Below, in pieces: positions 22,865 through 61,060 of a stretch of DNA of 64,000 nt. The notes beneath the pieces were generated by a model. That model had not been told where the DNA came from, made no database searches, and saw only the letters and a list, made by a program, of their open reading frames with translations. Source of the stretch: Anas platyrhynchos. Taxonomy: Eukaryota > Chordata > Aves > Anseriformes > Anatidae. Each line of letters starts with the position of its first letter. Positions within the stretch are counted from its first letter, which is position 1. Made by a program: the position numbers and the translations under genes. The DNA is taken from assembly GCF_047663525.1 (NCBI RefSeq), contig NC_092587.1, positions 146,498,001 through 146,562,000 of the forward strand, read 5' to 3'.

Positions 22865-23290
22865 TACCCTCTTTTACTTTAAAACCATTCCCCCTTGTCC
22901 TATTGCTGCACTCCCTGAAAAAGAGTCCCTTCCCAGCTTTCCTGTAGTCCCCTTTAGGAACTGGAAGACCACTGTAAAGTCTTCCCGGAGCCTTCTCTTC
23001 TCCAGACTGAACAACCCCAACTCCTTCAGCCTATCTTCATAGGAGAGGTGCTCCAGGCCCTGATCATCTTCATGGCTCTCCTCTGGACTTGTTCTTACAC
23101 TCCTGCGCTCTCCCTGTGCTGGGGGCCCCAGAGCTGAATGCAGGCGCCCAGGTGGGGTCTCACAAAAGAAAGGCAGGGGGGGGAGAATCACCTTCCTCAA
23201 CCTGCTTGCTGGTCATGCTGCTTTTGATGCAGCCCAGATACAGTTGGCTTTCAGGGCTGCAGGTGCACATTGACAGCTCCTGCTGAGTCA
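22860..23290 (-). mobile_element. CR1 LINE internal segment, antisense half of the composite
   Basis: From CCTACCCTCTTTTACTTTAA onward it matches the reverse complement of the CR1 region that normally lies just upstream of the adjacent sense half. Landmarks are CCCCTTGTCCTATTGCTGC, CTTCTCTTCTCCAGACTGAA, CCCAGGTGGGGTCTCAC and GATGCAGCCCAGATACAG. It carries no 3' end of its own. The right boundary is approximate. Confidence 0.9.
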
Positions 23291-25869
23291 GTTAACTGAT
23301 CATAACACCTGCAGAATTGGCCCCTTATTTCTTTATCGTAACACCTACAGCACTGCTGCCTTCTCTATTACTACTGTCAATTCCAACCCCTAATTTAACA
23401 AGGTAAACATTCAGATGAAATAAAGACTTTTGACTTTTTCACCTTTTTCATGATGAAAAATGCTTTCACATTCCCATTCCAACAAAAAAAAAAATATCTT
23501 AGGTCATATTTTATGGGCAGCTCCAAGCTACTTACTACTTCTGAATTCTTCCATTCCCTCACTCCACACAATTAAACCTTCTGTTGCAATTATTAACATG
23601 GATATGCTTTTCTGACCTAAAGCGGTGATTGCAATACAGGTTGACATTTATTTGAATGGAGAATGCAATCAAAGGATGTTGCAAGCTCTGCTGTTGCCAC
23701 CTGCTGTCCACGTTCACCTTGGATTGGCTTGGGTAGGCAGGATCACAGGATCCAAGTGAATGGCGAGGACTGAGTGGGCACAAAGTGACCTGAAAAAGAA
23801 AGCAGTTGTGAATGGAGATTCAGCAGGAGCCTGCAGATGAGAACAATGGTCCAGAGTGATCGCTATCTGGGGGTCTCTACATCTAGCTTACCGCCCATAT
23901 TTCACCCCATCTCTGTATATACATTCTGTTCCCAGCAACCAACTGCTTTCAGCAACCACGGCCACCTACTACTAAGTAACACTTCCAATTGCTTGTCTGC
24001 TTTGGCAGGAGTAGGAAATTCTCAGGTAGGCCAATGATGTCCAGCTTTTCTTTGCAGTAATAATTTGCACTAATGAGAAAGCTATGTTGCGGTGACAGTG
24101 CAGCTACAAAAGGGATAAAATGCTGGAAATGAAAGCTGACATCAAGAGCTAGGGGCCAGCAACAGAGAAACCAGCAATGAAGCAAGAAGGATTTTAGTCC
24201 AAAGTATGAAAGGGAAGTTTGCACAGTCATTCCCTTCCTTCATGTGAGAGATGAACAAGCAGACAAATGGACAGACCTGTCAGAAAATGGAACTCAGTAA
24301 AAAAAAGCACAGTATTTACCCAAAGAAATCAGTGCCTTTTGCAGTTGCATTTTCTCTCTGTTGGGCATGTGAACTCTCACCTCATCTACCTTTTATCTTC
24401 TGTAGTTCTATAAATGGCTCTTTTTTCCTGCCTCATCCCCCAGTTAAGTAACAGTCCTGATGCTAGGCTCAGAGATGGCACTAGTAGTTGTGGATTCACA
24501 CTGTACAATGTATGGAAATAGCAGCCAGTACAATACCAAAATAATGTAACTAGAGTTAGATGCAGAGTAATAGAGTGTTTGAAGAGTGGCAATGTGTTTT
24601 GCTCAACGGTTTTACACTCGTGTTTGCTAACATACAGTTAAGTATGGTGAGGCTGGATTAATTGATGTTAAGGGTTGTGTATAACAGCCTGAACAAGTTC
24701 GGCATACAGGAAGCACATAGTACAACATTTAGGTTTTCTTTTCCACTTTGAGAATTGGGTCCCAGAAACATCACTGATTCCAAAAAAAACTAGTGAGGGT
24801 TCTACAACATCAGAACTTACTCTGCTACAAAGGAAACCAGAGAAGCCAGTGAAGAACAACATTACAATTCTATCTTTCTCCTTTTCTCTTTTTTTTTTTT
24901 TTGGGCACAAAACATGTTTTTAGTGGAGCTAGAAATACTTGATGGGATCAAAAAAGACATCTGCATTGTTCGTTTCCCCCTCTTTCCCAGACATTAAATC
25001 AGTCCTGGTGTTACAGGAAATCTACTTTGTCTTCATCCTTCCAGTGGGAATCAAAATGTGTGTAAGAAATGTGGTGTTCAACAGTCTGGTAATTCTTTTG
25101 GGGGCTAGAATTCATGTGAAAGCTAAACGTGATCTGCCATTGAACCTACCTTTTAGGTCGTGGCACAGTCAAATAACCAAAGGATAAAAAGCATTACTTG
25201 TGCTGACTGAATACAAGGCAAGTTTCACTGGCCTGGTATTAGTTTTAAAATCATATCAGATACCAGGACCTATAGAAGAATAACTTTTCAGCAAACAAAT
25301 TAAAACTTGACAGTGCACTTGTCAGGCATCCAAGTTTCTGCTTCGGTACCTGTGTTACTGTCCAATCTGGATTATTAAAAGCCCAGCTCGTCTGTCTTGC
25401 AATTTGCAGGCAGCATGGCTTTTTAAAATGATGCCTCCAAAGCTGAAGGGCACAAATCATTTGTTTGGGTTTGGTCCAGGCAAATATAGCAGATTGTTTG
25501 TCCACATCCTGTGTGTAAAGAAAAAAATATGTAAAAGACAATGTTGTCTGTCTTCATCCTAGCAAAATATTGATCGAGACGTTGACATCTTACTTCTAAT
25601 TAGGCCAGAAGCTCTTCTGAGCTAACAACAGTCTTGCTGGGAATACCCAGAAGTGTAGGGCAGGAATTAGGACTATTTTGAGCTTTAAGGTTTCAGGTAT
25701 CTTGTGCCTAAAAATTTCGTTTTTTCTTGTATTTTGATGTATTGCGCTGACTATGTAGGTGCTGTAGGACCAGAGATGAACACTAGTGGGTATTTCCACC
25801 GGCTTGGGCGCGTTTTAAAGAAAATCTTACAAGAACACTGCTCTAAGATGACGTGTCTGGGATATAGAT
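23291..25869. other. Intergenic, upstream flank of the CpG island
   Basis: Apart from the weak CTCF-like motif near 23.7 kb I recognise nothing. No divergent gene start is evident on the - strand next to the island, although such islands often give rise to antisense RNA. Confidence 0.6.
23694..23710 (-). promoter_or_regulatory. Possible CTCF motif, reverse orientation
   Basis: The - strand reads TGGACAGCAGGTGGCAA, about 12 of 17 matches to the CTCF consensus TGGCCACCAGGGGGCGC. It faces the site at 4931. It is clearly weaker than that site. Confidence 0.25.
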
Positions 25870-26116
25870 AGCAACTCCGCCGCGTATCACGCTCCCAAAT
25901 CGGAGGTTTCCCCGGAAAGCCGGGGGAGATGAGGGTGGCGAGGAGCTTCCCCAGGCTGGCGGCGATGAATAAAAACGGTAATTCCGCTGCGTTTTTCACC
26001 GCTGAGGAGACAACCCCGGGCAGCGCCCCGGCCGCCCGCCCTGAGGCAGCCGCCTGCCAGCGGGCCGCGGGCGGCCATTACCGGCGCGGCCACCGCCTCA
26101 GCGCGGCCCCGCGCCG

Positions 26117-26123
26117 CCATTGG
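26117..26123 (-). promoter_or_regulatory. Inverted CCAAT box (NF-Y type)
   Basis: GCCATTGGCTG reads as CAGCCAATGGC on the - strand, a canonical NF-Y site. It lies about 155 bases before the NAXD leader ATG and overlaps a YY1-like GCCGCCAT. The motif is seen; binding is inferred. Confidence 0.5.
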
Positions 26124-26129
26124 CTGCCG

Positions 26130-26143
26130 CCGGCGGGGGGCAG
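26130..26143 (+). promoter_or_regulatory. CTCF-like motif in the NAXD promoter
   Basis: CCGGCGGGGGGCAG matches 12 of 14 positions of the vertebrate CTCF core CCGCGNGGNGGCAG, and the mismatches are tolerated ones. In such GC-rich sequence a chance match is fairly likely. Confidence 0.35.
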
Positions 26144-26262
26144 GATGGCCGCGGGGCGCCGCGGGGAGGCGCGGAGCGGAGCCGGGCAGGGGCGGCCGCG
26201 GAGCCCGGCCCTGCCCTGCCCTGCCCGCTGCGGCTCGGCCCCGGCCCCGGCGCGGCGCGGAG

Positions 26263-26270
26263 GCGGAAGC
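26263..26270 (+). promoter_or_regulatory. ETS/GABP-like site just upstream of the NAXD ATG
   Basis: GCGGAAGC holds the ETS core GGAA, 8 bases before the ATG at 26278. ETS/GABP (NRF-2) sites close to the start are common in genes for mitochondrial proteins. This is a single short motif, so the support is modest. Confidence 0.4.
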
Positions 26271-26277
26271 CGAGCCC

Positions 26278-26353
26278 ATGAGTTGGGTGCGCCGCCTGCC
26301 TGCGCGCTCGGCGGTGGGTGGCGGTGGTGGTGGCGGCCCCGCGCTGCGGCGAG
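26278..26353 (+). CDS. NAXD: NAXD candidate first coding exon (mitochondrial-type leader)
   Basis: The ATG at 26278 opens 25 codons plus one base, ending at a strong donor (GAG then GTAAGC at 26354). The peptide begins [13 protein letters not shown], continues with a run of seven glycines and ends PALRR. It is arginine-rich with no acidic residues, as expected of a mitochondrial presequence. The exon ends in phase 1, and the next NAXD exon (32479) starts with two bases, so the junction reads ...LRR-V-IERTF. Mammalian NAXD has the same design: a short, poorly conserved leader exon followed by a VL(E/K)RAFSL-like junction. The exon lies in the CpG island with an ETS-like site 8 bases before the ATG. 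I chose it by phase, position and composition, since leader sequences do not align. Confidence 0.72.
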
Positions 26354-29300
26354 GTAAGCGGGGAGCCCCCGGGGGGGGGCGCGGGGCTGCGGTGTCCCCG
26401 CAGCGGGTCGGAGCAGGAGGGCACCTGCTGGGATGGGATGGGGGGGGTAAAATGGGGGTGTGCGTGTGCCCGCGGGCAGCCCGGTGTGCAAGGTGTGCGA
26501 GGGGATGGCGTGTGCAAGGGTGGCCGTGCCCGTGCGGGCAGCCGCGCTCCGCTGCGGAGGGAGGGGGAGGAACGGGGGGAGGAGGAGGAGGAGGAAGGAG
26601 GAGGAGGAGGAGGAGGAGGAGGAGGGAGGCGCTGCCATGAGCCGGGCCTCCGAGTGCGGGCAGCGCCGCCGTCCTGCTGCTACTGCTGCTGCTGCTGCTG
26701 CTCCCGGAGGAGCCCGGGGCGGGGGAGCGGCGGCGCTGGGCTGAGCGGGGCGGCGGCGGAGCCTCCTTTCCTTTCTTCCCTCGTTGTTCTCGGCGGAGGG
26801 CGAGCGAGCGGCGGGGGAAGGGGGTTTTTATTTTATTTTTTTATTTTTGTACCCCCCCCCCCCCCATTATCCCACCCCCCTGGAACCCTCCCTGTTTGCA
26901 GGTGACCGCGGCGGCGGCGCCGGGAAAAGTTTGGCGTGCGGGCGGCGGCCCGGGCTGGGATGCGGGTCCCGGGGCTCGGCTCCCCGCCGCTTGCCGGGCC
27001 GGGGCTGGTGCAGGCGCCCCCTGGGCGAGCGGCGAGCGGGCGCTGAGCCCCCTCCCTCCTCCTCCTCCTCCTCCCCTCCGTCCCTCCCTCTCCCTGCCTT
27101 CCTCTCCCCGGCGCGCGGCCATTGCGGTGACCCCGGCCGGCCGAGGATGATCACCAACACGCGGGGCTTCCTCTGGTCGGACCTGGAGACGCGGGCGCTG
27201 CTGGAGATCTGGGGGGAGGCAGACGTGCAGTCGGCGCTGGACGGCAACTTTCGCAACAGCCATGTGTACCGGGACGTGGCGTGCCGCCTGGCCGAGCTGG
27301 GCTTCGAGCGCACCCCGGAGCAGTGCCGCATCCGCATCAAGGGCCTCAAGAGGCAGTACTACCAGGCCCGGGACGGGCTGAAGAAGAACGGGCACGCCCG
27401 CAAGATCTGCAAGTACTACGACGAGATGGACCGCATCCTCAGCTGCAGGGGGGGCCCCGACGGAGCCCCCGAGCCCCCCGCCGCCCCGCTGCCCGACGGC
27501 CCCCAGCCCCTGGGTCCCCTCGGCGGGCCGCCCACGCCGGGCACCCCGCACAACAGCCGCGAGGTCGACACGGAGCTGGACGAGGACGGCGAGCTGGAGT
27601 CCCCCCGCGACAACTTCACCGAGGACTCCGGCGAGTGCTCGTCCTACGCCGACCACCCCATCAAGGTGGAGTGTCCCCCCTTCGCCATCCCGGTGCCGCC
27701 GGGCGACGGTGAGTAGCGGGCGGCCTCCCCTCCGGCCGCTTCTGCCTCGCTCCCAAACCTGCCACCTCCTCCAGGCCTCCCAAGGGTGGTGCCCGGGAGG
27801 GGAGCAGGTGGGAGACGCCGCTGGGATGGAGGCCCCGAGGAGAGGAGGTTTGGCTGGGGTTGAGCAGGGGGAAGCCGACTGGCAGCGGAGGTGAGGCGAG
27901 GCGTCAGGGAGCGCCTCTCGCCGGAGGATTTTCCCCTTCCCTTCGGCTGACGTGCGGTCCCGCTAAGCGGCATTACGATGATGATGAAGATAATGCCCGG
28001 AAAAATCTGCTTATTGTGGCAGAAACGGGCCAGAGAGCTAGGGGTAGCTTTTACGTAATTAACGGCTTGGGTTGTTTCGGAAAGCCTGCCTCCAAGTTCA
28101 GCAGGGTGCTGGCAGACAGGAGAAGTCTTCAGATAAAGCCTGCCCCTTCCTCTCTCCTTCTTTCCCCCCGGCTCTGTGTGTGTGTTGTGGAGGTGGGGGG
28201 GCAGCGTTATTTGTTTGTTTTGAAGCTAGATTAGAGCCGTGTTTTTAATACAAACGTGAACCTGTCCTCAGCAGTTGACATCACTGAGGAATCAGCCAAT
28301 TGGTTGACGTTTAACCAACCTTCTTTTTACACATAAACCCCATCAAAGGGTTGTTTACACTAATGTCCTTTTGAAATGCAAATCCAGAATGCCAACAGAC
28401 TGAAACTCAATTTAGATTAATGTAATTACCTGCAATGCACAAATGAGCCTCTACTGTTTAATAGCCTTCACTTAAACCTTTTTACGAGATCAAAAAGACT
28501 CCCATTGTTGAAGTTTAGTACTACAACAATTAAAAGATGTCTGCGTGATTTTTGTGCTACCTTTGCGACTTTGTAGAAGCTTGAGGTTTTTTGCTTTGGT
28601 ACTCTGAAATACAAATATCTGAAATAATTACAGTTCTCACTGGGGAAGAATAACAACTTAGTGACACGTTAGGTCCACATCTCGCAGGGAGGTTTTTTTA
28701 GCGCTTTCTTCTTAGTCCTCCAGAAAAATAATTCTTTCTCCTCTTGTTTTAGGCTTTAAAGAAATAAGTGCTCCTACTGTTACTCCACCTCTCAATCAGC
28801 CCAAAAGATCAAAAAAACGCCATGCAAATTTAACGTTGGATAAAATGATGGAAAAATTTCTGCAACAGAGCGTGGATACAGAAGAGAAATTTTACAGATA
28901 TGAAGAGCAGAGGCTCAAAATTGAGGACAAGCGTCGTGAAGCTGAGCATGCTCGAGAGCTCCAGATGTTACAGATGTTGGGACAGATGTTGGCAGGAATT
29001 TCTTCTACGGTATCACAAAGGTCACAATCTATACCAGCGAGTCCACCTCAGAGGGCAAACCATCGCTCATATGGGGATAACTTTAATTATAATGCTGTGA
29101 CAGCAGCACTTTCTCCACCGATAGGTACTTCCTTCTATAGCATAAATAAAAGCTGTGTTTTTTAAAAGGTTCAATGTGAAAGCCCTGTTAGTAAGCAGCT
29201 TTTCAAAATAAAAGGTAGTTGGAATTATTGAATACCGTGGTGAAGGTGTCTGTCTGATGTAAAGCGAAATTGTCACTTGCACCATTGTACTGATTATATA

Positions 29301-32300
29301 ACATAGATGCGTTAGTTATAACAAACTCTAATGAGTGAAGTAACACTTCTAAAACCCTGTAAACATCGGGGAGTTCTTTCCACGTTCACGTGTCTGTAAA
29401 ACAAAGTCAGGAGAAGTTTTATACATGAAAGACAAGTAGTATGTTTGTTGAAGACTATGTGGAAACATTAGGTACGTTGTAGCAGAAATTCTGCTGCTAT
29501 TGAAATTAGCAGGCCTAACTCAGTGTGTGAAGTTAAGGATATGCATATGCTTTTCCAGGGTTGGGAAGAGACTTGAATTTTGCTTACGCTCAAGTAAGCC
29601 AAATGTTAAAGTCCAGCTTTAAAATAAATTTCTTTAAATATGTATTCTGAATCCTATCTTTTAATTAAACACCATATTACTGTAGTAGGCACAGTACAAG
29701 ATGGAAATACTGGCATGTATTTTTATTCTATACCAGTTCATCTATAAACTCTTTGGGGGCCTGAATTTATTTTAGAGAAGGCAAAGCAAGAACTCTAGAC
29801 TTGGTGTTTATGCAAAGACCTTTTCTTCTGTAAATTATGTGTGGGCCAGAAGCTGATAATCAGATATTAGCATTCATTAACAGACTTCTGAGCTCTGTGG
29901 TTCTGTGTCACTTATCTTTATCATAGTCTCTTTGTATGTGGAGGTAGACTTCATGGGCAGGAGGAAAACGGGTATTCTGGCAGTGCTGAAACCAGAGTCA
30001 GCTTGGGACTCAGTGGTTGTAGCCTGCTGTCTTGGAACAAGTCTTGTTCTGTTTTAATTCTGAAGTTCACACTGCTGGAAAGAGAAATTGTGGTTTGAAA
30101 AGAAAAAAAACCAACACCCAAATCCACAGTGTAGAATAATAATCCTGCACATCAGAACATAAAGGGCATGCTCTGATTCTTGAGAGGACCTTGAAACCTT
30201 TTCAGTTGTATATTAAATATTCTGGCATTTCCCTGTGAAATTGATCAGGAACTGTGTGTTCAGGCCTGTACAGGTTTAGGCTATGTGACTCAGTTGTGTT
30301 TCTTCTTGATCGGCTAGTTGATCAGTAGCAATACACTACGTCAAAAGACTTATTGATAAATTACAGCGTGTTTATGGATTTTGTGTTTCAAACACTGCTT
30401 TTACTTTTAAAGGAAAGGAAACCTAAAGTGCTTTAGAAAATCTCCAAGGAAGTCATTTGAGGTGTTCAGCTGGGGTGATGGTACCTACAAGGCTTTACCA
30501 TTGCTTCTAAAATGCTTTTTTCTTGCCAAAAGTTGAAGGAGTTTTATCATTTGTATGGGATCAAACCTGCAGTCTAGTTTCTCCTGCTGGATTTCACCAT
30601 ACAAGTTGTACAGCTGTAATACACTGTGCAAAAATGCTTTGTGTATATTTAACCGTAGTAATGAGGAACTCAGGTTCCTAACCTTTCAAATGGTGAAGGT
30701 GAAAGAAAGTGTTTGTAATGTGAAAAATCACGCTTCAGGCAGCACATCTTTGAAGGAGTTAGGATTGCAGTTGTTGATAGCTAAATATGCCTTAGTGTTT
30801 ATGTAGGTAAGTGGGGCTCCACAACGAATGTCTTTCAGCATGATTTCCTTTTCTTTTTGTTTATTACATAATCACTTTATATTTACAAACGAACAAAAAT
30901 CAGCAGCAAAGGAACAGAGGAGTTTCTCAAGTCCTCCTAAGGTGTACGATATGTATGTTTAATGTGAAGTTGAAAACCAGTTAATGTACGAGGTGTGATT
31001 TAAAGAAATTAATCTGCCCTATTTCCAGAGGAGATGAGTGTTTTATTTTACTAGGGGTTGCTGCAATGCTACATTGGCCGTAATCCAACACGTGGATATA
31101 TATGTGTATATATATATAAATATTTTTACCTCAGTGGAAGCAGAATGCCTGTATTATAGGAGGATTTTAGAAGCAAAAGATCAGCAAGGAGTATTTATTA
31201 TTATTGAATACTAAAGCATTTTATTGCTGATGATTAGGTTTAGGTTTAGATTTTGTGAAGGATGGAGAAAAAGATGCTTTCTGCTGATAGCGTGCAGAGA
31301 GAGTTTTCTTGCTTATTACTTTTTTTTTCATTATTACGTCCAAATTTTCTGGCACATCTTTTTCTCTTCTTTCGCCTCCAGTTTTTGGGGTTGAGGGGTG
31401 GGATTACTAAATTTTGTACAAGTGGAAATCAGGACTATTGTGGGAGCTATTTTTTATGTAATTTTCTATAAATACGCAGCAGTTCCTTGAAATATTTTTG
31501 GAGATCTGTAAAAAAAAAAAAAAAAAAAAAAAAGAGGATAAAGTAAAGAAGTAAAATATAATGTTTAAATAAACCACTCTTCTCAACAAACTTGTACAGT
31601 AAATGAGTTTTGTTGAAATACAAGAGTTTATTCTTTATTTACTGCAATTTATAGTTAAACCGTCATTGATGTAAGTACTGGTCTTCTGTTTTGTCCCATG
31701 ATAGGTAAACGTTAATTTGCTTTAGTTGTAATTGCTGATACACTTTTTTCTGCTAAATTTTCATAGTCTTTTGAAACAGTAATTTGAGCATACAGCGTTT
31801 GGAGGGTATAGCTGTTTTAATACATAGTGTCAAATGTAACCTTGCATCAGAGATCAGTAGTTGCGTTACAGCTCAAACTTGTTTGTGTTATTTTTGTAAT
31901 GCTTGCTGCATCTAGTGCAATGGATTATAGTTTTGCAGAAAGACTTTGCATTATGCTTCGTAGCCACCTGCCAAAATGAGAGCAGTGAGTTAGGCCCCGA
32001 TTCTGCTGAGGTGTGGAAGTCTTTAAGGGGAAGTGAAAATAAGGTAGGGTATAAATATAAAATGTGGTTTGAGCTGTTCTGTGCTTGCTCCGTGTCTGGA
32101 TGTGCTTAGTCCTTACTGAGTGTACCTATTTCAGTTGAGCTTAATTATGGAAGTGATTTCAGATTGACGATAGTTCTGAGTTGCAAAATGTACATGTAAC
32201 TATTCTGGGCTGTTGTTTCTCTCTGTACTCGAGCTCTAAGCTAGGACTGTGTGAGCAGTGAGAATGTTCGCCGCCTCAGACGCTAAATTCATTTTAAAAA

Positions 32301-33807
32301 TGATCACCTTCCCTATTTACTTGGTGTTTTAAAGGCTTTGAGGTGCTAATGCTTTTGGTTTTTACAAGTACGTCCATTTGTATATCTTCAAGTGACTTTA
32401 TTGGTGTTTGAGTACTTGAATGCTCATGTTAGTTTAAAAAAGAACATGTTTTACAGTAAGACTTTCTTTCTTTTTCAGTTATAGAAAGAACTTTTTCACT
32501 GCACCGAACACACACTCTGAAGGATATGGAGAATATTTTTCAGCTGGTGCGCAACGTTATCCCTCCTCTAACAGGGAAAAGGCATAAAGGTCAAGATGGA
32601 CGGATAGGCATTGTTGGAGGATGTCAAGAGTAAGTTAAACAGAAATCTGAGCGTTGTCTTCGAGAGGTTGTGGATATCACTGCTGCTTCTGGAAGCCATT
32701 CAAGCTCACCTTAGGAGAGTTTTCTAGAGGGCTTTACTAATCCATCATTGTGACCGTGCATGCTTATGAAAGAGCACGTAGCCCTAAGGTTGTGATGCAA
32801 AACTTTGGCAGTGAATGTGGTTGAAACTTGTGTTGAAACTTGAGTGCAGTTGGTGTCTGTGTCTACCCTCTCAGTCTTTTTTGACTACCCTAACAGTCTT
32901 TACTTTCAGTATTAATGTTTTTTCCCATTGCATGATGAGGTTGTAGAAGTAAATAGACTAAGACAGTGGCACAGCTGATCTTTGTTGTATTTTGGTATCT
33001 TGGGAACTGGATCTCTTAAATGAGGAATAGAATGTTGTGTCACTGTGAGCTTTTTATTTTGATCAACTGTGGTGTTTACTAGATTCTATCAATACCCTGA
33101 TTTATGATGTTTTGGAATGATAGAAATAGAATGTTTCAAAAAAAAAAAAATACAATGTATACCAGTTAAATGTTGTACTGACCAAGAAATAAAACCTCTG
33201 TTCAGTTTCTTGGTCACTTTCAATAATCTGCACAATACTTTGCACAAACCACTATACCTTCCTGTTTTCCATTTTCCCCTTTTGAAATAGAGGTGGCATC
33301 TTCTGTAAAAGAGATCTGCCATTAATAAACATTCTATAAAGAGCAAAAATGTGCTGTGTTATAGCTAGGTTGATTAGCCAGGAGTTAGTTTTCCTGTTGG
33401 TCTACTGGACTTAGGTTCTTTTCTCTTGGCAGAAGCAGACACCTCTGGAGGATGATTCTGCCCATATCCCTCTTTTCAGTCTTCATAAAGAGAATTCAGG
33501 ACAACTGTAGTCCCAGTTTAGGTACTTCAGTTCAGCATCTAAAACCAGATGGGATTGATCTAGGTCAAGGATCCCAGACTTGGCTCGCAAACAGTTCTCA
33601 ACTATTGTTTTGTTTGTCTGTCTCCAAACTTTTAAGATGATTGTCTGAGAGGAGTTTGCTTTTTTATGGCATAATCTTTATAAATATTTCTGTGGAAAGA
33701 TCAGGTGTCCAAGGTGAAATCCTGGCTACTTTCAAATCAAAGCAAGGTTTGAGATTGGCTTCAGTATAGCAGGATTTTGTCTGTCTTTGACAGCAAACAA
33801 AAGAGAA

Positions 33808-33844
<37 letters not shown>

Positions 33845-35853
33845 GCCCTTGAATTTGAGATTTCATTATGGCAAAGTGATTTCCAGATTATCTAACCTCA
33901 TGAATGTGCTTCCTAACCTAAATTGTATTTCATTCTAGATACACGGGAGCACCATATTTTGCTGCAATTACAGCTCTCAAAGCGGTACGTGTTCTACACC
34001 AATCCAAAGTGAACTTTTCATCAGTTATGTTGGCTTAGTGCCATTTTTAAAAAGCATTTGCTCTGTGATGTACTTGAAATTGGAGTTCTAAAAGGTCTTC
34101 TGTTTAACAAAGAAAATTCTTAGTTCTGGATTTGTAGAAATATTTTGTAAGTGTGTGTCACTTGCTGTTTCTTGCAAGTATTTCCTCTGTATAAGGTAAA
34201 GTTAGAGCTAAGTCAAAAAAAAATGAAGATTTTAGGGGAGAACTGTTTTATCAGAGGCTCAGATAGCAAATCTGAAAAGTTGCTGAAATAGTTTATCAAA
34301 TATCTAAATATCTTTAGATTAGTGTTTAAAGTTACATTTTCAGTGTGGCAGTCAGAATTCTTCAGAATTTCTTTCCATACTTGCTAAGTGTGTTGAATGA
34401 AGTAACTTTCTTTCAAAACTTAGAGCTTTAGGCTAATAAAATTATTGGGTGCTGTAAGTCTGACCATAGTTGGTTAAATTTAATGTATTTTTTTAGTAGT
34501 ACATTTTATTTACATTATAAGCTCTAGCAGAAGTATTTCCCAATGTTTTTTCTTCCTAGAAGTGATTTTAGGGACATATTAACTGGCTAAAAATATATTT
34601 ACAGTACACTACCGAAATACATTTGTGATTATACAAATATAAACAAATCATGCGTACATAATGTATATCTACTTTTCACATACACGTATTCTATTTGTGT
34701 ACCAGCACTTTCAGTACTTCCTTTTCGTCGCATATGTTTATTCCTTCTGAAGGCATGTTTCGATCTTTTCTTCCCTCTTTCCCCCCAAAAGATGCAGTCC
34801 CTCAAGGATTTAAAAAAATCCTAAAACTGAAATGTTATCATTTAATAATCTTATTATAAAATGCTAAAGCACTCAGCTTTCTGTTCACTAAGTGCAAATA
34901 CAGTAGTACACCAGGAGGTCCTCAGCTGAAGTTGCGTGGCCGCAGATCATTACATCTGCATAGGAGGAACCATAGGATCAAATTTAAGAATTGCATAGAA
35001 ACCTGAAATATTAAACGTGTAGAAGTAAAGCAGAGGAGACACTTCCTTAACCTTGTGAAATTGCAGCGTGGAAGACAAATAGCAGACAAGGCTTTCTGGT
35101 CACTGCTTACATAATTTTTAAGTGTACTTCGGATTTTTTGAGTTCATGGTGGAAGCTTGAGGCTAAACTTCTCAGCTTTATTTAACTGAAGGGAAGCTGT
35201 TGAAACTGTGCCAGCCTTTATCTGCTGTGGATTTGGCCTGTTGAGTAAAAATGGTAGGACTGGAATAGTACTTGTAGATTGTTACAGCTATATTTTGCAA
35301 GTATATTACAGTATTACTTTTCCTCTCTAGTGCAGCTTATCTCTTATTCAATTATGTTCTCCTGCCTTTTTTTCCTATTGTACATGTGCTGTTTTAGTCT
35401 TTGCTAATCTGAAATGAGAAACGATGCTCAAGTGAGTAAAAGTTCAAGATCTGTGGTTTTGGCCATCCTTTTGTTGAGAAACAGAAAAAAAAAAAAAAAA
35501 CAAAAAAAACAAAAAAAAACATTTTGGAAGGTAGATGCAAAAAAATGGTATAAATTTTCTCCAAAACATTGCATGGTATGATAAGCCAAAATAGAAAAAA
35601 TACAAAAAGTTTGCTTCAACCACCAAGAAGTAGGAATTTGATAGTAGGTGAACTGTTTACTGAGTGAGCTTTGGAATGACTAAGTTGTTATTAAGTACAG
35701 AATTGATGATTCTATTTGTGTTTTTTTTCTTTTTTAGGGCGCAGATTTATCCCACGTGTTTTGTACCAAAGATGCAGCAACAGTAATCAAATCATATAGT
35801 CCAGAGCTGATTGTTCATCCTGTCCTGTAAGTGACTTACCTTTTTTTTAATGA

Positions 35854-44800: not shown

Positions 44801-47800
44801 GAAGTTCAGATGCTGTTGTCTTGGGGCCTCCCAATAGATCTTCTGACTTACTTTTATATTAGTATTAGCTCTGTTCCTCAGAGTAGGAGTACTGCATTTA
44901 TGATTCTTATTCTGGAAAAAATCCATGATTCTTTATCTTATGGCTCTGTACCCCTGAAGACAATAATGATTCTTGTTTACTCGATCCCTCTCTATCTAAG
45001 CCTGAAGATTACATCTCTTTTGATCAGGGGGACATCATCTTCATACCTCATACCTTTATAGATACTTTAAAAAATGGTGCTAATCTAAGTTGTATGTGCA
45101 TGTCTTTGGCCGTGGAGGTGATAATTAAATGGAGTGGTTTGAAATCAGGTTAGGAATCAGACAGAGCAATTGGCATGAAGGAACAAAGGAAGTAACAGTT
45201 ATTTTTGTGAGTACAGCACCCAGCAAACAGCTGAGGATATGATTTGTGTTTTGTGCTGGTACTTCTGAAATATTCTGTGTTTGTTTTTTAATCCCCAGAG
45301 AAACAAGAATACATGTTGGCTTTGTCTGCAGTAGTAAACTAAACAGAGCCAAGGCATATTTATTCCCAGTTACCTGAGCATTATTATCCATACTGCCAAA
45401 TGATCCTGGGCAAGGTTTTGGCCCACACCATGTAGCTTTTCCTAAGTGACTTCTCCCACTGCTGAGGAATTACTACAGTTCAGGGGCTGTGCCTGGTAGG
45501 CAGCTTGGTTGTTAACGCTGCTCTGAGGCCTTACAGTGGGCTCCTTCCAGGGGCTGGTTGACTTCTGCATCAGAAAACCAATCTGGGGATGTTTAAATAT
45601 TGTGTGTAGGCTGTAGCTGTGTTAAGAGCTGAAAGTTTCTCTATGCTACATCCTGTGGTCAGGAAAGTTGGAGATGATACCCATTTATCATCTTCTTGAA
45701 GAAAGTTACACGGTGGTCATTCTTACTCTGTCAGCTTTAAAATATTACTGCTTTGATGTCTGTGTGTGGGACTAAGCCATAACCTGATGTGATAAGCCCT
45801 TCCACTTCCAGACAAGCAGAGCCAGGAGAGTTTATAAGGTGTCCTTAGGTGCGTAATTGCAGCTGTTGTGAGCATCCGGTACCTTGAAGTGAGGGTGGTG
45901 TGGTGCTACGAGGAGGCAGTATTCGTTCTGCTTCCTTTTATAAAGAATAAAATTCCATCAGATATTTTTTCAGCATGTTTTTAATAGCTGATTTTGCAGT
46001 GTAATAGTCATTATCACCATTCTGAATCTCTTGGCCCTTCATGTGCCTTGGGTTGCTTCTCGATGCGGAATTGCGAAGGAGTTATGTGAAACGTAATGTT
46101 TGTAAAATGCTTTGAAGATGAAAAGCTCTACAGTAGGTTTTTATTATTACCAGGGGCAAAGTGAGCAGGAGTGGCTTCGTGTTGGACTGCTCATTTCCCG
46201 AGAGATGGCTTTGTTTTGAAGAGCGTACATTATCAGTTGGGTTGGAGACCAAATTATCTTATTTGAAGTCTGAATATAAATAAAGTAGTAAACTTTCTAC
46301 CTTGAGATTATTTGCATGAGAAAGTTTATTATTTGCGGAGGAAGTTTTGGTACAATCCTCGCTCTATTTAAAGTAACGTTTATTCTGTGTACTCGTCTTC
46401 CGCTATCCAAAGCTGGTTTGAATCCAGCCCTTTCAAACATCCTCATCAGGGAAGCAGGGCTTTGCTGTAGATCAGCTCTCCACGTCTTAAAGCTAAAACC
46501 AGTTTCTATGTTACATGTTAATATGTAAATAAAAGTGTGGCGGTTTGTGCAGCGGCCCTTGGTGGTGGCGAGGCCTTTGGGCCGCGGCCAGGCGCGAGCA
46601 GGCCGCCTCGCCTGCCGCAGCTGCACGAGCTGCTGGCTCCTGCCTGGCACTTGCAGAAATCGCTGTGGAATTTGCTGATTCTGCCAGAGCCGGGCTAAAC
46701 ACTTGTTCCCGAGTGGTGTGTCCCAGCGGTACAGCTGTCGGTTATGAAAAACATGCAGGGGCTTTTGTCCGCAGTCATAGAGCTCTGTCGAAGTATCGCA
46801 AGCTGAAAATATCCTGAGGAGTGCTGTCGTGTAGCAGCACCTCCTGGCTTAGCCTGCAGGGAGCTTTTGCCCCCCGTGTTTGGGTGAAAATGTTCATCTG
46901 TTATCAGCCACTTGTGCCGGAGGTGGAGAGGGAGGCTAAACTTCCCCTCCGTATTGACAGTGAGGATTTACTTGGCGTTGTCCAGCTGTGCTTTCAAAAT
47001 GTTCTGACCTATTTACACAACAAAACCAATCAAAACAACATAAACGGTTCTGGTGAGCTGCTGGATGCTGGATTGCAGCGGTAGCATTTGGCAGTGGGTA
47101 TTCTTGTCATTTTCCCAACGCAGGCAAAACCTAAACACTACAGAGATCTTACACGCTACGACCCCATGATACCCGTGGTGAACGGCTTGCTGCTTCTCTT
47201 GCCTTTTGGGAAAAGGGGACAGTTTGGCTGCAGTTCAGTTGGAACAAATGCTGGTGAAACAACAGACAATAAAAGCACACAAGTAAATTTATCATTTTGC
47301 CATATAGAATAATAAGTAATTGCGTAATTCCCAGCAAGCTGCAGTATACACCTATGAGATGGTGGATCTCTCTCCCAGGTGTAATCTCTACAGGGAAACA
47401 TTAAATAGGGAACTGTGACAGACTGTAATAACTGTTGGTTCCCCGCCCTTTTCTTCTAATGTTTTTTTCTTTTAATATTTTGTAATAGCTTTGGGGGATA
47501 CTTGTAATTATTTCCTCGTTTTTATGTGGTATCCCGTAAGGAATGAATTGAGAGAAATGTTTCATTTTAGCTATTTGGACAACCACGCCACATTTCCTGG
47601 GCTACAAATGTTTGGTAATTTGAAGGATAAAATTGCCTGACACTCAGGATATGAGAGAGCTCTTCATGTCTTGCACCTGGAACTCAGATTTTGAGAATAC
47701 TAAAATGAAGCCTTTTTGAACATGCCTTTTTTTTTTTCCCCCCTAATTTTGTTTAGTGATAGCCCGAATGCTGTCTATGAGGTGGAGAAGTGGTTGCCAC

Positions 47801-50800
47801 GACTGCACTCAGTTGTCATAGGACCTGGCTTAGGTAGAGATGAAGTTCTACTTGAGAACGCAAAGGTAATATGTTTCCTGCTATTTTATTCTATGTCTTC
47901 ACGTTGAATTTTATTAACCAATTCCATATCTATGTGATCACACTGATGTTTCTGGTTAACAACTAACAGATTAAGTACAATTGTTGCAATATATTTCCAT
48001 GATTGAAAGGGGGCTCTGTGATAAGAATGAACTACAGAAAGTATTTTACTTTTTTTAAGAAGACTTTATATTTGTTTTTTATGAGTGGTTAGTATTTATT
48101 GTAACAGCTATAATTTAAAGGGAAGAGTTTAATTGGATATTGTTGACAGAAAATTGCAGCTGTTAATTATGGTCTTCATTATTAAAATTAAGAGCGATGC
48201 TTTATGTTCAGGCACCCACATAGTTGTTTTGATTTGCTTCTGCTTTGATTGTGAAAGTTGCTCATTAAGAAATAGATGTTGGCACCTCTGAAGGGCTCTG
48301 TGTTTTCTTAGGTGCCGAGCACCTGTACTGTAAGAACCTAAATATGAATTTCAGTTTCTAATTTTAGGAGCTGTGTTTGACAGCTTGTGAAAGGAGAGGG
48401 ACCAAAGAACAGAGACTGTGTCCCCTTGCAATGAGAAATAATAGTCTTAATTATAAAATGTTGCAGATTTCTACTCTGGATAAAGAAGTAATCCTATTTT
48501 CTGTCAAGTCTTAGTGGAAAGCTGAAAACAGGAGCTTAGATAGCTCTGTGCTCTAACTAACAGGCACTTACACAGTCTTCCAGATGATGTCTTGTATTAC
48601 TACCGATAGATCTCTGCACGTTCAGAGTACATATTTCACTTTGCACAAAATTAGAGTGACACTAATGTAAGAAAGAATTCTGAGGACTGTTACTGAATTA
48701 ATCAATGGTACTAACAAGTGCAATTAATAGAAATTACAGAAATGTTAACAGTTGCACAGTGAAATTACAAGTGAGGAGGCAAGAGACTGGAGACCACATG
48801 ACATCCAAGACATTCAGAATACTTTGAGGTTGATAAGGGCATTTTTGCTAGGCTTTTGTTAGAGAAAGTTGCTGTTGTAGTTCTTCACTCCTTTAATTCT
48901 CCTTCTGCTTTCAAAAAGTGTTTGTTTTATGATGTAGAGATGCAAAACTAAAAAAAAAACACCAAAAACACATGGCTTTGGAGACTGGCAATAAAGAAAA
49001 TTATTATAGCTGATGAAGAAATAAAATTTGATGATGAATGTAAACTTTCAGCGAAGGCGGTTTTTGAAAACTTTCCTTAGAATTCTTTTTGCAGAAAAAA
49101 AAAGATTTGAGTAACGATTTTTCCTTCTCGTTCTATTTTTACTTTTTTTTTTCCCCTAGAGGAAATTAACTTTAAACAAAAGAAAATAAGGCTTTGTTTA
49201 GAATATCTACAAGATCTAACATAAGCTTCTTCAGTCCGTCTGGGCTTTCTAAGTATCTGTCATGTACTTACCTGTAAGATAGTATGTGGAAGATTCCTTT
49301 ATTTTTTTCTTCATTGCTAAAAATAATTTTTGCTTTCTTGGTGAATTACAATCATACTTTTACTTCAGCCTGGGTGTCCTGCGTGAGCTTTCATGAAGTT
49401 AAAGAAACAAACCCAGTCAGTGAAGACAAGCTGTTTGGGAGCTCTCCCATACTAGGGCCATGTTTATGCGAGCTGTAGATCTGACCTTGTTAATTTCGAG
49501 CCACGTTAAAGCTCAAGTTCTTTGTCTTCGCTATAATTATTTAAGTGTTCATTAGTTATTCAGTTGTGTTGTGTGTGTGTGTGTGTTGTGTTTTTTTTTT
49601 TAATCCAACAACCATAATCTTCTAAATTCTTCGTTCAACCAAAAGCTTTAAGAAGTGCATGTAATTGGGAAAAGTGAACTCTGGTTACCTGCTTGAGGAG
49701 AGCTGGTGTTTCTCTGTGCTGAAGAAAGTCTGAGCCTCCCTCTTGCTTCGACAGTGAATTTTAAGCTTTGTATCACTCTTCACCTTCCAAAAAACAAGCA
49801 AGTGATGATAGCATTGCTATTTTAAACTTTTCTAAGAGGCTGACTGGGTATATAATTTTCTCTCTTCTCTTTAAGCTAACCTCAGCATGCTGTCATTTGA
49901 ACACAGGGCTGAGATGTAGATTAATGTCTGCTTTTGTTTCAGGGTTTTGTATCAGAGCGGCGGTGACAACGGGAGGAAGCTTCTCCTCTTCCTCATTCTG
50001 CCCCATTTAGGTGACGAGGCCTAGCCGTCTGTCACCTCTCTGACGCTGTTCTTGTTTGGGTCTTGTCCGAACTGTGCCAGCACATTGCCAGCAAATGTGC
50101 TTGTCCAAACAGTCAGGTGTTCGGGCTGCTTTTCTCCTCTGAGCATTGAGAACCCAAGGCACTAAGGCAGCAACCTGCAGTTCCTGGTATATGGCCAGAG
50201 TGATAGATCGTGGAATAGCCCTAGTACTTGCTGACCAGGTGGTGCATCTTCTCACTCAGGACCATTTGTTCTCTGTGTCCTTATGGTATCATCTGCCTCC
50301 TTCGTGCTTGATGTGCATGCATTGTGGCCTTTCAGGGCTTTCCAACAGTCTGATGGAAAAGAAGCGCTTTGTGATTGGTTTCCTCCTACTTCTTGAGTGG
50401 AGTGGTGCTCTGAATATGTCCTTGTAGGCTTCCTGTGATTGTCTGCTTTTGGCTGTAATTCCATCTGCAAGTCTTGTTGCAAGAAGCTACTCAACAAGTT
50501 TTATTCCCCCTCACATACTGTTCCTCAGTTGCCTGGATGAGGTCTGTTGCTCTGTCAGAGCTCCCTTGTTACAGGTTTGCAGGACCAGGAGCTGCAGGTT
50601 CAAAAAAATTTACCAAAGAAAGCTTCTGTTGGGTCCTTTTTTGTTTGGATCCCATGCAGGTGTGGCAGCTCTAGACTTGGCATGATTAGACCTTCCAACT
50701 CTGGAGCGAAGAAGCATTCCAGGCTATTCTCCAGAAAGAGAAAGCCACAGCCAGCTTCCTTGTAGGCAATACCAGGCCATCTGTTTTTCATTGTCTGTGA

Positions 50801-59800: not shown

Positions 59801-61060
59801 ATGTATGATGTACTGCTTGTCTCGGGGTGTTTGTTGTATGTGAACTTGAGTACTGCAACGAGGGCATCATCAGAAAGACAGCTAAGATTAGTACTAGAGT
59901 TATGGGTAGAATTTTATCATGACACTACTTATTTGGATTATTATTTTTTGTAATTTGGAAAGATATGTTTGCTATGTACGACTCCAGTTAGCATATAGCC
60001 TTCTAGATCAGGGAGAGTGAGTTGGATTGTTTTTTGTTTGTTTGTTTGCATGTCAACACCAGGGTGTCAGTTGTAGAAACCCTGTTGTCACTGCTTCAGA
60101 CTGGGAGAGAGCAAAGCAGCTGTAAAATTACTAGTTGATATGAAAATGTCTTCTCTAACTTTGATGACCATAACTGAATATTTTATTTCACTCTGAAAAA
60201 GCAACTTATATGACCAGATTTATTGTACAGCACCTACCTTCTAGACAGGAAGAAAATGCAGAATTTATTTTGGATGTTACAAGCTTTAAATTAGCAAGCT
60301 TCTTAAAGTTATCTCCATTTTTTCTTGCAGGGTATTATAGAAAAATCGAAACTCAAAGGAATTCCTATCATTATTGATGCTGTAAGTATATTTTTGATTC
60401 ATTCAGTGGCTTGACATTTAAGAATCTATTCAGAAAGTGTACTTCTTACTGTTTTTTGCAGGATGGACTGTGGCTTATTTCCCAGCAGCCTTCTATTATT
60501 CAAGGCTACCAGCGAGCTATTCTTACTCCAAACTATATGGAGTTTAGTAGACTGTATGAAGCTATGGTGAGTTATTTTCCTTTTTTCAATTAAAGTATGT
60601 GCAAGTTTAGTCTTGTAGTCTTTATATAAATGAACACATTATTACTGGACTAAACATTATGTGCTGTTCCTCGTATGCAAGATGAGCATTGTCTGGGTTT
60701 TTATTCCAGGGGATAATTGCCACGACAATGAATATTCTTAAACAGAACTCTTTTTTTTTTTTACAGAAGAAAAATACCTTTTTAAGGTATTTTTGGCACT
60801 GCAATGGGTATAGAATAAAAATACCTGGGAAGGCTGATGGTGATGCTTTTTCTTTTCCCTACACACGCTGAAGTGACGTGTTAGAATATTTTGTTCTAGT
60901 AATAAAATACGTACTGTGTATGGAATTCTTGTGTTGTAGCTTAGAGACCCCGTAGACAGTAGTGATCATCATGGATGTGTATTAAGACTCAGCCAAGCCA
61001 TGGGGAATTTGACAGTTGTTCAAAAGGGAGAACGAGATCTTATTTCAGATGGAGATAAAG
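26278..61060 (+). CDS. NAXD: NAXD, ATP-dependent (S)-NAD(P)H-hydrate dehydratase (multi-exon, 3' end beyond window)
   Basis: This is the metabolite-repair enzyme that uses ATP to dehydrate the damaged, hydrated cofactors (S)-NADHX and (S)-NADPHX back to NADH and NADPH, working with the epimerase NAXE. The family has a ribokinase-like fold. Joining eight exons (76, 151, 46, 89, 109, 51, 105 and 121 nt) gives an uninterrupted frame of 249 codons plus one base. The translation closely follows vertebrate [18 protein letters not shown] start of the fold, [57 protein letters not shown] and [10 protein letters not shown]. All exon borders are GT-AG and phase-consistent. The exons carrying the GGQGD ATP-site motif and the C-terminus are not present by 64,000, so roughly 90-100 residues are missing. 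Introns are long (6.1, 1.3, 1.8, 11.9, 12.5, 0.08 and 0.37 kb). The identification is very secure; the choice of first exon is less so. Confidence 0.96.
26430..26458 (+). other. G-quadruplex-forming sequence
   Basis: Four or more G-runs (GGG-AT-GGG-AT-G8-TAAAAT-G5) lie on the sense strand about 77 bases after the leader-exon donor. They fit the G3+ N1-7 rule and could form in DNA or in the first-intron RNA. Confidence 0.55.
26571..26628 (+). repeat. (GGA)n purine tract
   Basis: This is a G/A-only, GGA-rich tract of about 55 bases in the CpG island, between the leader exon and the SANT exon. Such tracts can form G4 or triplex structures and are splicing-enhancer-like as RNA. A short (CTG)n run (about 26680-26701) follows. 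Confidence 0.8.
26852..26865 (+). repeat. C14 homopolymer
   Basis: A run of 14 C lies in the pyrimidine tract ahead of the potential acceptor at 26901. The length is prone to sequencing error and polymorphism. Confidence 0.85.
26901..26902 (+). other. Potential splice acceptor for a 5'-extended SANT exon
   Basis: A long T-rich then C-rich tract (26825-26896, including a C14 run) ends TTTGCAG at 26901. An exon starting at 26902 would be in phase 1 and keep the SANT frame open, so the leader exon (donor 26353) could join it with no frameshift. The intervening 548-nt intron would be G-rich. The site is seen in the sequence; its use is inference. Confidence 0.4.
27147..27708 (+). CDS. SANT-protein exon 1 (DNA-binding domain)
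   Basis: The ATG at 27147 is followed by 187 codons plus one base, ending at the strong donor GACG then GTGAGT at 27709. It carries the whole SANT-like domain and the acidic/Pro-rich linker, which ends [11 protein letters not shown]. The frame is open further upstream through 26784, but that part is low-complexity and GC-rich, so I start at the ATG that directly precedes the domain. If the acceptor at 26901 is used, the coding exon would instead run 26902-27708 (807 nt, divisible by three). Confidence 0.82.
27147..29165 (+). CDS. Myb/SANT-like DNA-binding domain protein nested in NAXD intron 1
   Basis: Two exons (27147-27708 and 28753-29124) encode a 311-residue frame that then either reads on to a TAA at 29163-29165 (324 residues) or splices in frame into NAXD. 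Residues about 7-100 form a trihelix-type Myb/SANT-like domain (W10 and W22; third-helix pattern [16 protein letters not shown]), resembling the domain found in ZSCAN20/ZSCAN29 and MSANTD proteins. Residues about 105-187 are rich in Pro, Gly, Asp and Glu. PKRSKKRH at 204-211 looks like a nuclear localisation signal. Residues about 216-268 (charged, then [10 protein letters not shown]) look like a coiled coil, followed by a Ser/Pro tail. The likely role is a DNA-binding nuclear factor; targets are unknown. The ATG has A at -3. I cannot name the gene. Confidence 0.8.
28753..29124 (+). CDS. SANT-protein exon 2 (nuclear-signal cluster and coiled coil)
   Basis: The acceptor is TTGTTTTAG at 28752. 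The first two bases complete a Gly codon with exon 1, then comes [13 protein letters not shown], a basic cluster, a long charged helix and a Ser/Pro-rich tail ending ALSPPI. The donor is ATAG then GTACTT at 29125, weak because +5 is T rather than G. The exon is 372 nt (124 x 3), phase 1 on both sides. Its last base joins to NAXD exon 32479 to restore V-IERTF, so a fusion keeps frame. Without splicing, the frame runs 13 more codons to a stop at 29163. Confidence 0.82.
29145..29212 (+). terminator. Candidate poly(A) signals for a standalone SANT transcript
   Basis: AATAAA occurs at 29145-29150, inside the read-through tail, and again at 29207-29212, about 42 bases after the stop at 29163-29165. 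A GT-rich stretch (about 29239-29260) follows the second. The second is well placed to end an mRNA that ignores the weak donor at 29125. AATAAA is common in AT-rich introns, so this is only suggestive. Confidence 0.4.
31510..31533 (+). repeat. NAXD: A24 homopolymer in NAXD intron 1
   Basis: Twenty-four consecutive A about 950 bases before the core exon at 32479. No gene body precedes it that would make it a retrocopy tail. Confidence 0.92.
32479..32629 (+). CDS. NAXD: NAXD exon (start of catalytic core)
   Basis: The acceptor is a pyrimidine tract ending TTTTTCAG at 32478; the donor is GTAAGT at 32630. Translation from the split first codon gives [20 protein letters not shown], then [10 protein letters not shown], then [15 protein letters not shown], which is the conserved entry to the NAXD ribokinase-like fold with its first glycine turn. 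The exon starts in phase 1 and ends in phase 2. This is the exon to which either the leader exon at 26278 or the SANT exon at 28753 can be joined in frame. Confidence 0.95.
33811..33839 (+). repeat. NAXD: T29 homopolymer near the NAXD 46-nt exon
   Basis: Twenty-nine consecutive T, ending 99 bases before the exon that begins at 33939. It is separate from the exon's own weak pyrimidine tract (CATTCTAG). Confidence 0.95.
33939..33984 (+). CDS. NAXD: NAXD small exon (46 nt)
   Basis: The acceptor is TTCTAG at 33938 and the donor GTACGT at 33985. The exon completes the split Glu codon and encodes [15 protein letters not shown], a nearly invariant NAXD segment that packs next to the substrate site. 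It starts in phase 2 and ends in phase 0. At 46 nt it is unusually short, and a T29 homopolymer ends 99 bases upstream of it. Confidence 0.93.
35738..35826 (+). CDS. NAXD: NAXD exon
   Basis: The acceptor is a T-rich tract ending TTTTTAG at 35737; the donor is GTAAGT at 35827. It encodes [20 protein letters not shown] then [10 protein letters not shown], matching mammalian NAXD closely. It starts in phase 0 and ends in phase 2. A (TA)n microsatellite begins about 30 bases into the following intron. Confidence 0.95.
35856..35884 (+). repeat. NAXD: (AT)n microsatellite beside a NAXD donor
   Basis: About 29 bases of AT repeat start 30 bases after the donor at 35827, following a T8 run. Confidence 0.92.
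44490..44733 (+). mobile_element. NAXD: CR1 LINE fragment, 3' end, sense, in a NAXD intron
   Basis: GAGTCAATGGGCACAAACTG, AGAGCCCTGGCTCAGGCTGC, CCCAGGGAGGCTATAG, CTCCTTGGAGGCCTTCAAAA and GGTTGAACCAGATATCCTCC then CAGGTCCCATCCAACCTT follow a CR1 3' end in sense. The copy is diverged, with a decayed terminal repeat. Confidence 0.88.
46535..46720 (+). other. Isolated GC/CpG-rich patch in a NAXD intron
   Basis: About 190 bases with many CpGs (GGGCCGCGGCCAGGCGCGAG, GCCGCCTCGCCTGCCGCAG) interrupt AT-rich intron. Frames are open on both strands, as expected for GC-rich DNA, with no recognised protein. It could be an enhancer, an unannotated first exon or an old GC-rich repeat. Confidence 0.5.
47757..47865 (+). 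CDS. NAXD: NAXD exon with GPGLGR motif
   Basis: The acceptor is GTTTAG at 47756 behind a T/C-rich tract; the donor is GTAATA at 47866. It encodes [20 protein letters not shown], then [16 protein letters not shown]. The GPGLGR turn is a hallmark of the YjeF C-terminal/NAXD dehydratase family. It starts in phase 2 and ends in phase 0, and is preceded by an 11.9-kb intron. Confidence 0.95.
49960..52390 (-). other. ORF-dense, moderately GC-rich block of unknown origin in a NAXD intron
   Basis: About 2.4 kb differs from the AT-rich intron around it. It has higher GC and a chain of overlapping 60-140-codon frames on both strands. Read on the - strand it looks like a coding-type sequence broken by stops and frameshifts, for example frames at 51600-51298, 51769-51575, 50497-50252 and 50255-50007. 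It fits a decayed retroelement or processed pseudogene. I recognise no domain, and no terminal repeats or target duplication are clear. Confidence 0.35.
52402..52448 (+). repeat. Short tandem duplication (about 21 bases, two copies)
   Basis: TTATTTACTTAGTTTTTTAC is followed at once by TTATTTACTTAGTTTTTTGC. It lies at the right edge of the ORF-dense block. Confidence 0.8.
56538..56561 (+). repeat. NAXD: A24 homopolymer in a NAXD intron
   Basis: Twenty-four consecutive A. The lysine run in the overlapping frame is an artefact of this tract. A T20 tract at about 57,917-57,936 is similar. Confidence 0.9.
60331..60381 (+). CDS. NAXD: NAXD small exon (51 nt)
   Basis: The acceptor is CTTGCAG at 60330 and the donor GTAAGT at 60382. 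It has exactly 17 codons, [17 protein letters not shown], which form the strand leading into the conserved DADGL motif. Phase is 0 on both sides, so skipping it would keep the frame but delete the start of that motif. Confidence 0.94.
60462..60566 (+). CDS. NAXD: NAXD exon completing DADGL and carrying LTPN
   Basis: The acceptor is TTTTTTGCAG at 60461 and the donor GTGAGT at 60567. Its 35 codons begin [16 protein letters not shown], which completes IDADGL with the previous exon. They continue into [17 protein letters not shown], the family's LTPxxxEF segment. Phase is 0 on both sides. The intron before it is only 80 nt. Confidence 0.95.
60940..61060 (+). CDS. NAXD: NAXD exon, last one visible in the window
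   Basis: The acceptor is GTTGTAG at 60939 and the donor GTAAGT at 61061. It encodes [20 protein letters not shown], then [20 protein letters not shown]. The VVQKGERD segment corresponds to the VVQ(Q/K)GERDI stretch of vertebrate NAXD just before the nucleotide-binding GGQGD exon. It ends in phase 1. No following NAXD exon is recognisable between 61,061 and 64,000. Confidence 0.95.

Follow-up and report, generated by a model that had tools for sequence, protein, structure and literature searches.

A predicted SANT-domain form of the cofactor-repair enzyme NAXD, seen from the duck NAXD locus

Does the Myb/SANT-like reading frame in the first intron of the duck NAXD gene belong to a gene of its own, or does it encode the N terminus of a DNA-binding form of NAD(P)H-hydrate dehydratase? 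The window analyzed here is a stretch of 64,000 nucleotides from Anas platyrhynchos (contig NC_092587.1, positions 146,498,001 to 146,562,000 of the forward strand; GC content 41.5%) and contains the 5′ part of the bird NAXD gene. The reading preferred here, with a probability of about 0.72, is that NAXD of bony vertebrates would possess two alternative 5′ modules, namely the leader exon E1 and the SANT/trihelix exon A, both located in the same CpG island. Between these modules and the shared enzyme core would sit a cassette, exon B, whose product has a basic cluster and, probably, a coiled coil. The product of exon A, exon B, and the core exons (A-B-core) would be a SANT-domain NAD(P)H-hydrate dehydratase—most likely a nuclear, oligomeric, and sequence-specific DNA-binding protein with the repair enzyme as its C-terminal domain.

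A tblastn search with a human NAXD protein as query gave the positions of the NAXD exons, which were then refined at their splice sites (Table 1). Exons 2 to 8 align to this query; no tblastn match to later exons was obtained within the 64,000 nucleotides, and the remaining exons presumably lie past position 64000. E1, exon A, and exon B all end in phase 1, and exon B also starts in phase 1. Hence, the frame stays open in each of the combinations E1-core, E1-B-core, A-core, and A-B-core, and E1 spliced to core exon 2 gives an open reading. A preliminary description of the window had proposed that splicing from 29124 to 32479 keeps the frame. This is exact: both SANT exons (27147–27708 and 28753–29124) end in phase 1, and exons A and B and the core exons through 61060 join to 535 residues within the window with zero stops. 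The caution that such a phase match has about a one in three chance of arising at random is overturned by the recurrence of the same order across bony vertebrates, A-B-core being found in 125 of 222 retrieved proteins; a chance match is thereby ruled out.

These 222 distinct proteins were obtained from three protein searches with SANT-containing queries and classed by BLAST against the window modules. They comprise all 111 rows of the first search, the best 120 of 277, and the best 120 of 255, the last search scoring only the 8000 candidates with the most shared words. The classes are A-B-core (125), A only (40), B-core (28), A-B (13), A-core (12), and B only (4); the 125 of 222 are not a frequency among NAXD proteins generally, because the queries contained SANT and were not built to retrieve E1-core, the ordinary short form. 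A-B-core proteins are found in birds, turtles, alligator, lizards, snakes, frogs, caecilian, and newt; in coelacanth, bichir, sturgeon, gar, bowfin, and teleosts; and in opossum, armadillo, sloth, elephant shrew, and golden mole. The goose (P0112) and swan (Cygnus; P0113) models belong to this class, and window residues 1 to 312 are 99% identical to them. A-core is exemplified by monitor lizard (P0010), Xenopus (P0031), and armadillo (P0046), and leader-B-core by turtle (P0036) and tamandua (P0074). The three unusual combinations foreseen from the phases—A-core, leader-B-core, and A-B-core—are all seen. Bird and reptile NAXD models with an N-terminal SANT domain, for which the preliminary description had suggested a search, are thus annotated in large number, and such isoforms extend to amphibians and fish. 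The preliminary description knew of no such fusion. The databases already contain it as annotated NAXD isoforms, whereas the literature searches made here found no paper describing it.

The SANT domain (residues 7–97) shares 92% identity with the window in coelacanth, 91% in Xenopus, 87% in bichir (Polypterus), and 69 to 77% in the three tabulated teleosts. The corresponding values of the enzyme core (residues 362–535) are 87%, 76%, 83%, and 75 to 78%. Judged from these alignments, conservation of the SANT domain roughly equals that of the core. The linker is poorly conserved relative to the window (29% in coelacanth, 37% in Xenopus, and 19% in bichir).

The window protein matches the Pfam family PF13837 (Myb_DNA-bind_4) with E=1.3e-21 and 77.2 bits (cut-off 27), which bears out the Myb/SANT-like domain of the originally predicted protein; the solved sequence closest to it is the GT-1 DNA-binding domain (E=4.3e-6). 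In alignment A1, for which 63 of the 125 A-B-core proteins were chosen from rows already listed with both domains, 63/63 representatives match PF13837 (at E 0.001) as well as PF01256. All but one of the 125 proteins (124) carry the motif of the putative recognition helix, whose basic residues R61, R63, K65, K68, and R69 are invariant in A1; this stretch is taken here to be the DNA-contacting (third) helix. Consensus patterns exist for the monopartite basic cluster (nuclear type) and for psi-K-x-E (SUMO type). The former is found at the start of exon B in 118/125 and the latter near the end of exon A in 121/125, both counted without a shuffled control, and alone these motifs are no proof of nuclear import or modification. 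The core matches the solved NAXD 6efw with E 9.2e-67. DADGLW and GGQGD, which we take to be functional motifs of the NAXD core, are each present in 118 of 125; the window translation shows DADGLW only, the GGQGD exon not being found within the window.

A possible, if rather unlikely, alternative is that A-B-core binds DNA and uses its NAXD domain only as an oligomerization or ligand-sensing platform, turnover being unimportant. The enzyme-derived domain of GLYR1 offers an analogy, a coiled coil together with an enzyme core could form high-order multimers, and conservation is about equally strong in SANT and core. The intact core motifs would speak for turnover, yet they are uninformative here, since the core exons are shared with catalytic isoforms. 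It is distinctly improbable that the N-terminal modules merely replace the targeting leader to give a nonmitochondrial NAXD, with SANT as a structural cap that does not bind DNA. The invariant basic residues of the putative recognition helix argue against such a cap, as do the retained basic cluster and psi-K-x-E motif, although no targeting peptide is predicted in the two long zebrafish isoforms (PMC12861718).

Evidence on RNA comes from 48 rows labeled 'lgn', which were taken as raw-read assemblies and fall into the classes A (27), A-B (9), A-B-core (7), B (4), and B-core (1). The seven A-B-core clusters are P0069, P0154, P0159, P0161, P0193, P0200, and P0203, with 1+12+13+2+12+30+7 = 77 member sequences in this order. 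Their longest contigs measure ~2.3 to 3.5 kb, all seven proteins end in KLFE[ST], and six of the seven begin at the SANT methionine region. These contigs represent spliced RNA, because in the window the exons concerned are spread over more than 33 kb. Their sequences resemble those of amphibians and fish rather than birds. Transcripts, to which the preliminary description had left the decision on the fusion, hence speak for it in part: spliced A-B-core contigs exist from non-avian vertebrates, whereas the avian contig P0001 lacks the B-core junction.

The seven fusion clusters also speak against the SANT unit being a transcription-factor gene in its own right with its end near 29.2 kb, with the fusion RNAs as leaky read-through splicing and the models as annotation joins. 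This arrangement, held to be improbable, is favored by the behavior of exon B. Its donor is read through in eight of the nine 'lgn' A-B rows, namely P0001 and seven further clusters, the ninth (P0057) breaking off early. Scored with consensus frequencies, this donor is the lowest of ten in the window (3.6 vs 5.9–12.5), and AATAAA hexamers follow 21 and 83 bases downstream of the exon B end. Stand-alone proteins with SANT and a coiled coil are moreover found in ray and shark (P0086 and P0083).

The read-through products permit a closer view of both donors. They are mostly assembled contigs; three are annotated models (P0042, P0009, and P0020). Beyond exon A, 25 of the 40 A-only rows are informative; 22 of them continue with E or K, as expected of a phase-1 donor of the GTRAG type, two with M, and one with R. 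Of the 17 A-B or B-only rows, 14 are informative past exon B, and all 14 have G at the junction, followed by T, S, L, or I, never by E or K. A phase-1 exon B donor that is weak by consensus hence seems to be conserved in bird, frog, and teleosts, as far as residues can tell. The tails beyond vary by lineage: GTSFYGINKS (that of P0001), GSALLSLAPG, GLRRTVAIHY, GISFGVM, and GIRHPC. An independent nested gene would be expected to keep a C terminus of its own and no conserved splice out. Lineage-variable tails next to a junction residue that fits a phase-1 B donor in every informative row are the opposite, and a simple nested gene is disfavored by them. Leader-B-core and A-core models, too, link exons A and B to NAXD splicing. 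A conserved SANT-only C terminus, which bird GTSF and neoteleost GISF had brought to mind, was dropped, as other fish tails (GLLM and GLRR) and the frog-like GIRHPC differ. The hexamer at 29145 overlaps the read-through frame of exon B; it may be conserved, because P0001 shares the INKS residues encoded there. In the cyprinid models P0187 and P0188, exon B is ~10 codons longer (PAGPGLLMEEGD.. before the junction and FIERS after it) than in loach P0199 (PAGP and VIERS), as if a second donor lay downstream.

The description of a SANT gene nested in NAXD intron 1 is therefore correct in position, exons A and B sitting between E1 and exon 2, and needs revision in that the unit is not simply a separate gene: it shares a CpG island with E1 and can be reached from it by a splice to 26902. 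The CpG measure of the bins flanking 25750 to 27999 is 0.46 on both sides. E1 joined to 26902 reads MSWVRR...ALRR-GDRGGG... without a stop, so that E1 and 26902 to 27708 encode the leader, ~80 low-complexity residues, and SANT; the swan model P0113 has the same arrangement. The goose model P0112 has a different, shorter junction without an AG acceptor in the window and may be in error here. Taken together, these features make the SANT exon appear as one of two alternative 5′ modules of NAXD, with the phase 1-1 coiled-coil cassette next to it.

Several observations weigh against the reading of A-B-core as a DNA-binding repair enzyme. No avian contig with the B-core junction is present among the proteins retrieved, and the sole avian spliced 'lgn' contig retrieved (P0001, 16 members) passes from the A-B junction through the exon B donor without reaching the enzyme. 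In the bird samples concerned, this contig speaks for an RNA that encodes SANT without the enzyme and against the fusion as the dominant form. The bird fusion entries are, by name, mostly automatic gene models, which favor in-frame joins. Donor phases outside the window are deduced from amino acids rather than DNA, many of the rows belong to related fishes, and a longer exon B may explain the G-L rows of cypriniforms. Catalysis by the fusion isoform is not provable from motif conservation. Finally, no boreoeutherian fusion is found among the named matches (all 111, best 120 of 277, and best 120 of 255), a search confined to protein entries; unnamed 'lgn' rows and proteins hidden within clusters are not assignable to taxa for this purpose. 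This suggests that the fusion was lost in the human-mouse lineage, and it may, given its absence from these lists, be dispensable in boreoeutherians.

What the A-B-core protein would do can be outlined as follows. We infer nuclear entry, DNA binding, oligomerization, and sensing, as well as regulation at the exon B donor. A nuclear, DNA-bound role is plausible, and with it cofactor repair at chromatin, as the preliminary description had it, would mean that the handling of S-NAD(P)HX and ATP is placed at, or sensed at, particular loci. The weak exon B donor would let part of the transcripts end as a SANT-only protein and could thus be a switch between SANT-only and SANT-enzyme products. As to origin, related SANT proteins without a NAXD domain (P0083, P0086, and P0096–P0100) occur mostly in sharks and rays, are partly annotated as MSANTD2, and may be the source, or else relatives, of exons A and B.

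Table 1. Features of the NAXD locus, with coordinates in the 64,000-nucleotide window
Feature	Position	Strand	Remarks
CpG island common to E1 and exon A	25750..28000	.	CpG observed/expected 0.67–1.02, GC 0.52–0.86 (250-base bins, 25750–27999)
NAXD exon 1 (E1, leader)	26278..26353	+	76 nt; ends in phase 1; donor gtaagc; swan P0113 begins with the same leader
Optional 5′ extension of exon A	26902..27146	+	AG acceptor before 26902, reachable from E1; in frame with the SANT open reading frame
Exon A	27147..27708	+	ATG at 27147; 562 nt; donor gtgagt after 27708; phase 1
Exon A, content	27147..27708	+	Myb/SANT-like (trihelix) domain at Pfam residues 10–97, acidic/proline linker, psi-K-x-E (IKVE)
Exon B	28753..29124	+	372 nt; acceptor tgttttag; enters and leaves in phase 1 (1-1 cassette); donor gtactt, weak
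Exon B, content	28753..29124	+	Basic cluster KRSKKRH and long helix, probably a coiled coil (judged by eye)
Exon B read-through tail	29125..29165	+	Stop at 29163–29165; yields 324-residue SANT-only product; matched by spliced contig P0001
Two AATAAA hexamers	29145, 29207 (29145..29212)	+	Candidate poly(A) signals for the SANT-only form; scan of 29100–29400
NAXD core exon 2	32479..32629	+	Acceptor tttttcag; phase-1 entry possible from E1, A, or B
NAXD exon 3	33939..33984	+	tblastn and splice sites
NAXD exon 4	35738..35826	+	tblastn and splice sites
NAXD exon 5	47757..47865	+	tblastn and splice sites
NAXD exon 6	60331..60381	+	tblastn and splice sites
NAXD exon 7	60462..60566	+	tblastn and splice sites
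NAXD exon 8	60940..61060	+	tblastn and splice sites

Ten other open reading frames of the window were scanned with Pfam for neighboring genes, and none gave a significant match (best E 0.31). Three frames on the minus strand (8609–8962, 13557–13889, and 22677–23030), likewise without significant Pfam match, contain phrases such as VVRHWHR and LEVSKARLDGAL, which to us recall the tail region of bird CR1 retroelements.

NAXD deficiency in humans leads to the severe childhood disease PEBEL2. Human NAXD work would not have met the fusion, which was not found in the human lineage among the named matches. A 2026 zebrafish study, which describes NAXD deficiency as not studied in vivo before, reports long and unexplained N-terminal extensions of naxd isoforms, and the words SANT and Myb do not appear in its main text (PMC12861718). 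Judged from the paper rather than from the isoform records, these extensions would be exons A and/or B. The isoform expressed and assayed as active is the short X7 (PMC12861718). Loss of naxd is lethal and loss of naxe viable; this gap in severity is called 'unexpected', and biochemical reasons such as higher S-NADHX are offered (PMC12861718). The zebrafish mutation lies in exon 5, in a sequence described as holding S-NADHX-binding residues (PMC12861718), and hence would affect every isoform. Should zebrafish isoforms 1 and 2 prove to be the forms they resemble, the SANT fusion would be among those affected. Loss of a DNA-binding isoform would then be an additional and testable reason for the difference between naxd-/- and naxe-/-, and naxd phenotypes of fish, frog, and bird may be imperfect models of the human disease. 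A wider proposal, put forward tentatively and as a whole more doubtful than not, is that SANT-NAXD was already present in the bony-vertebrate ancestor as a DNA-bound NAD(P)H-repair enzyme or as an NAD(P)HX/ATP-sensing transcription regulator. Its conserved weak donor would toggle between SANT-only and SANT-enzyme, the form would have been lost toward humans and mice, and part of the severe fish naxd phenotype would be regulator loss.

Among known systems, NAXD itself, the ATP-dependent (S)-NAD(P)H-hydrate dehydratase, is the nearest. The human cytosolic, mitochondrial, and endoplasmic reticulum isoforms stem from the same gene and have the same PF01256 catalytic core as the fusion. Alternative NAXD 5′ ends choose the compartment; the long isoforms discussed here are set apart by the Myb/SANT domain and by exon B with its basic cluster and probable coiled coil, and no such isoform is named in the passages on human NAXD consulted here (PMC12861718 and PMC11715087). 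Among the open-literature papers listed, judged by title or start of the abstract and with subscription journals mostly outside coverage, no description of a SANT-NAXD protein was found. As far as these searches reach, the fusion is a conserved, database-visible, and apparently undescribed class of NAXD isoforms.

Trihelix proteins with PF13837, such as GT-1 and the vertebrate MSANTD/ZSCAN29 type, share the Myb/SANT-like domain and, as in P0086, the order of SANT, basic cluster, and long helix. Proteins of the MSANTD/ZSCAN29 type are stand-alone or joined to zinc fingers, whereas the C terminus of the fusion is a metabolic enzyme. DNA-binding 'trigger enzymes' include the bacterial NadR, BirA, and PutA and the plant BZR1-BAM beta-amylase factors. 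They resemble the fusion in that a single polypeptide unites a DNA-binding domain with a metabolic enzyme, which may link transcription to the state of a metabolite, and NadR is also NAD-related. The architectures are, however, not homologous, and the fusion, known here from sequence, arises by alternative splicing of an ordinary enzyme gene. GLYR1/NPAC carries a chromatin-binding module on an oligomerizing domain derived from an NAD(P) enzyme of another family. That enzyme domain is inactive, whereas the NAXD core motifs are intact in the fusion. If the preferred reading is true, SANT-NAXD would give vertebrates an example of a DNA-binding protein with a built-in cofactor-repair enzyme.

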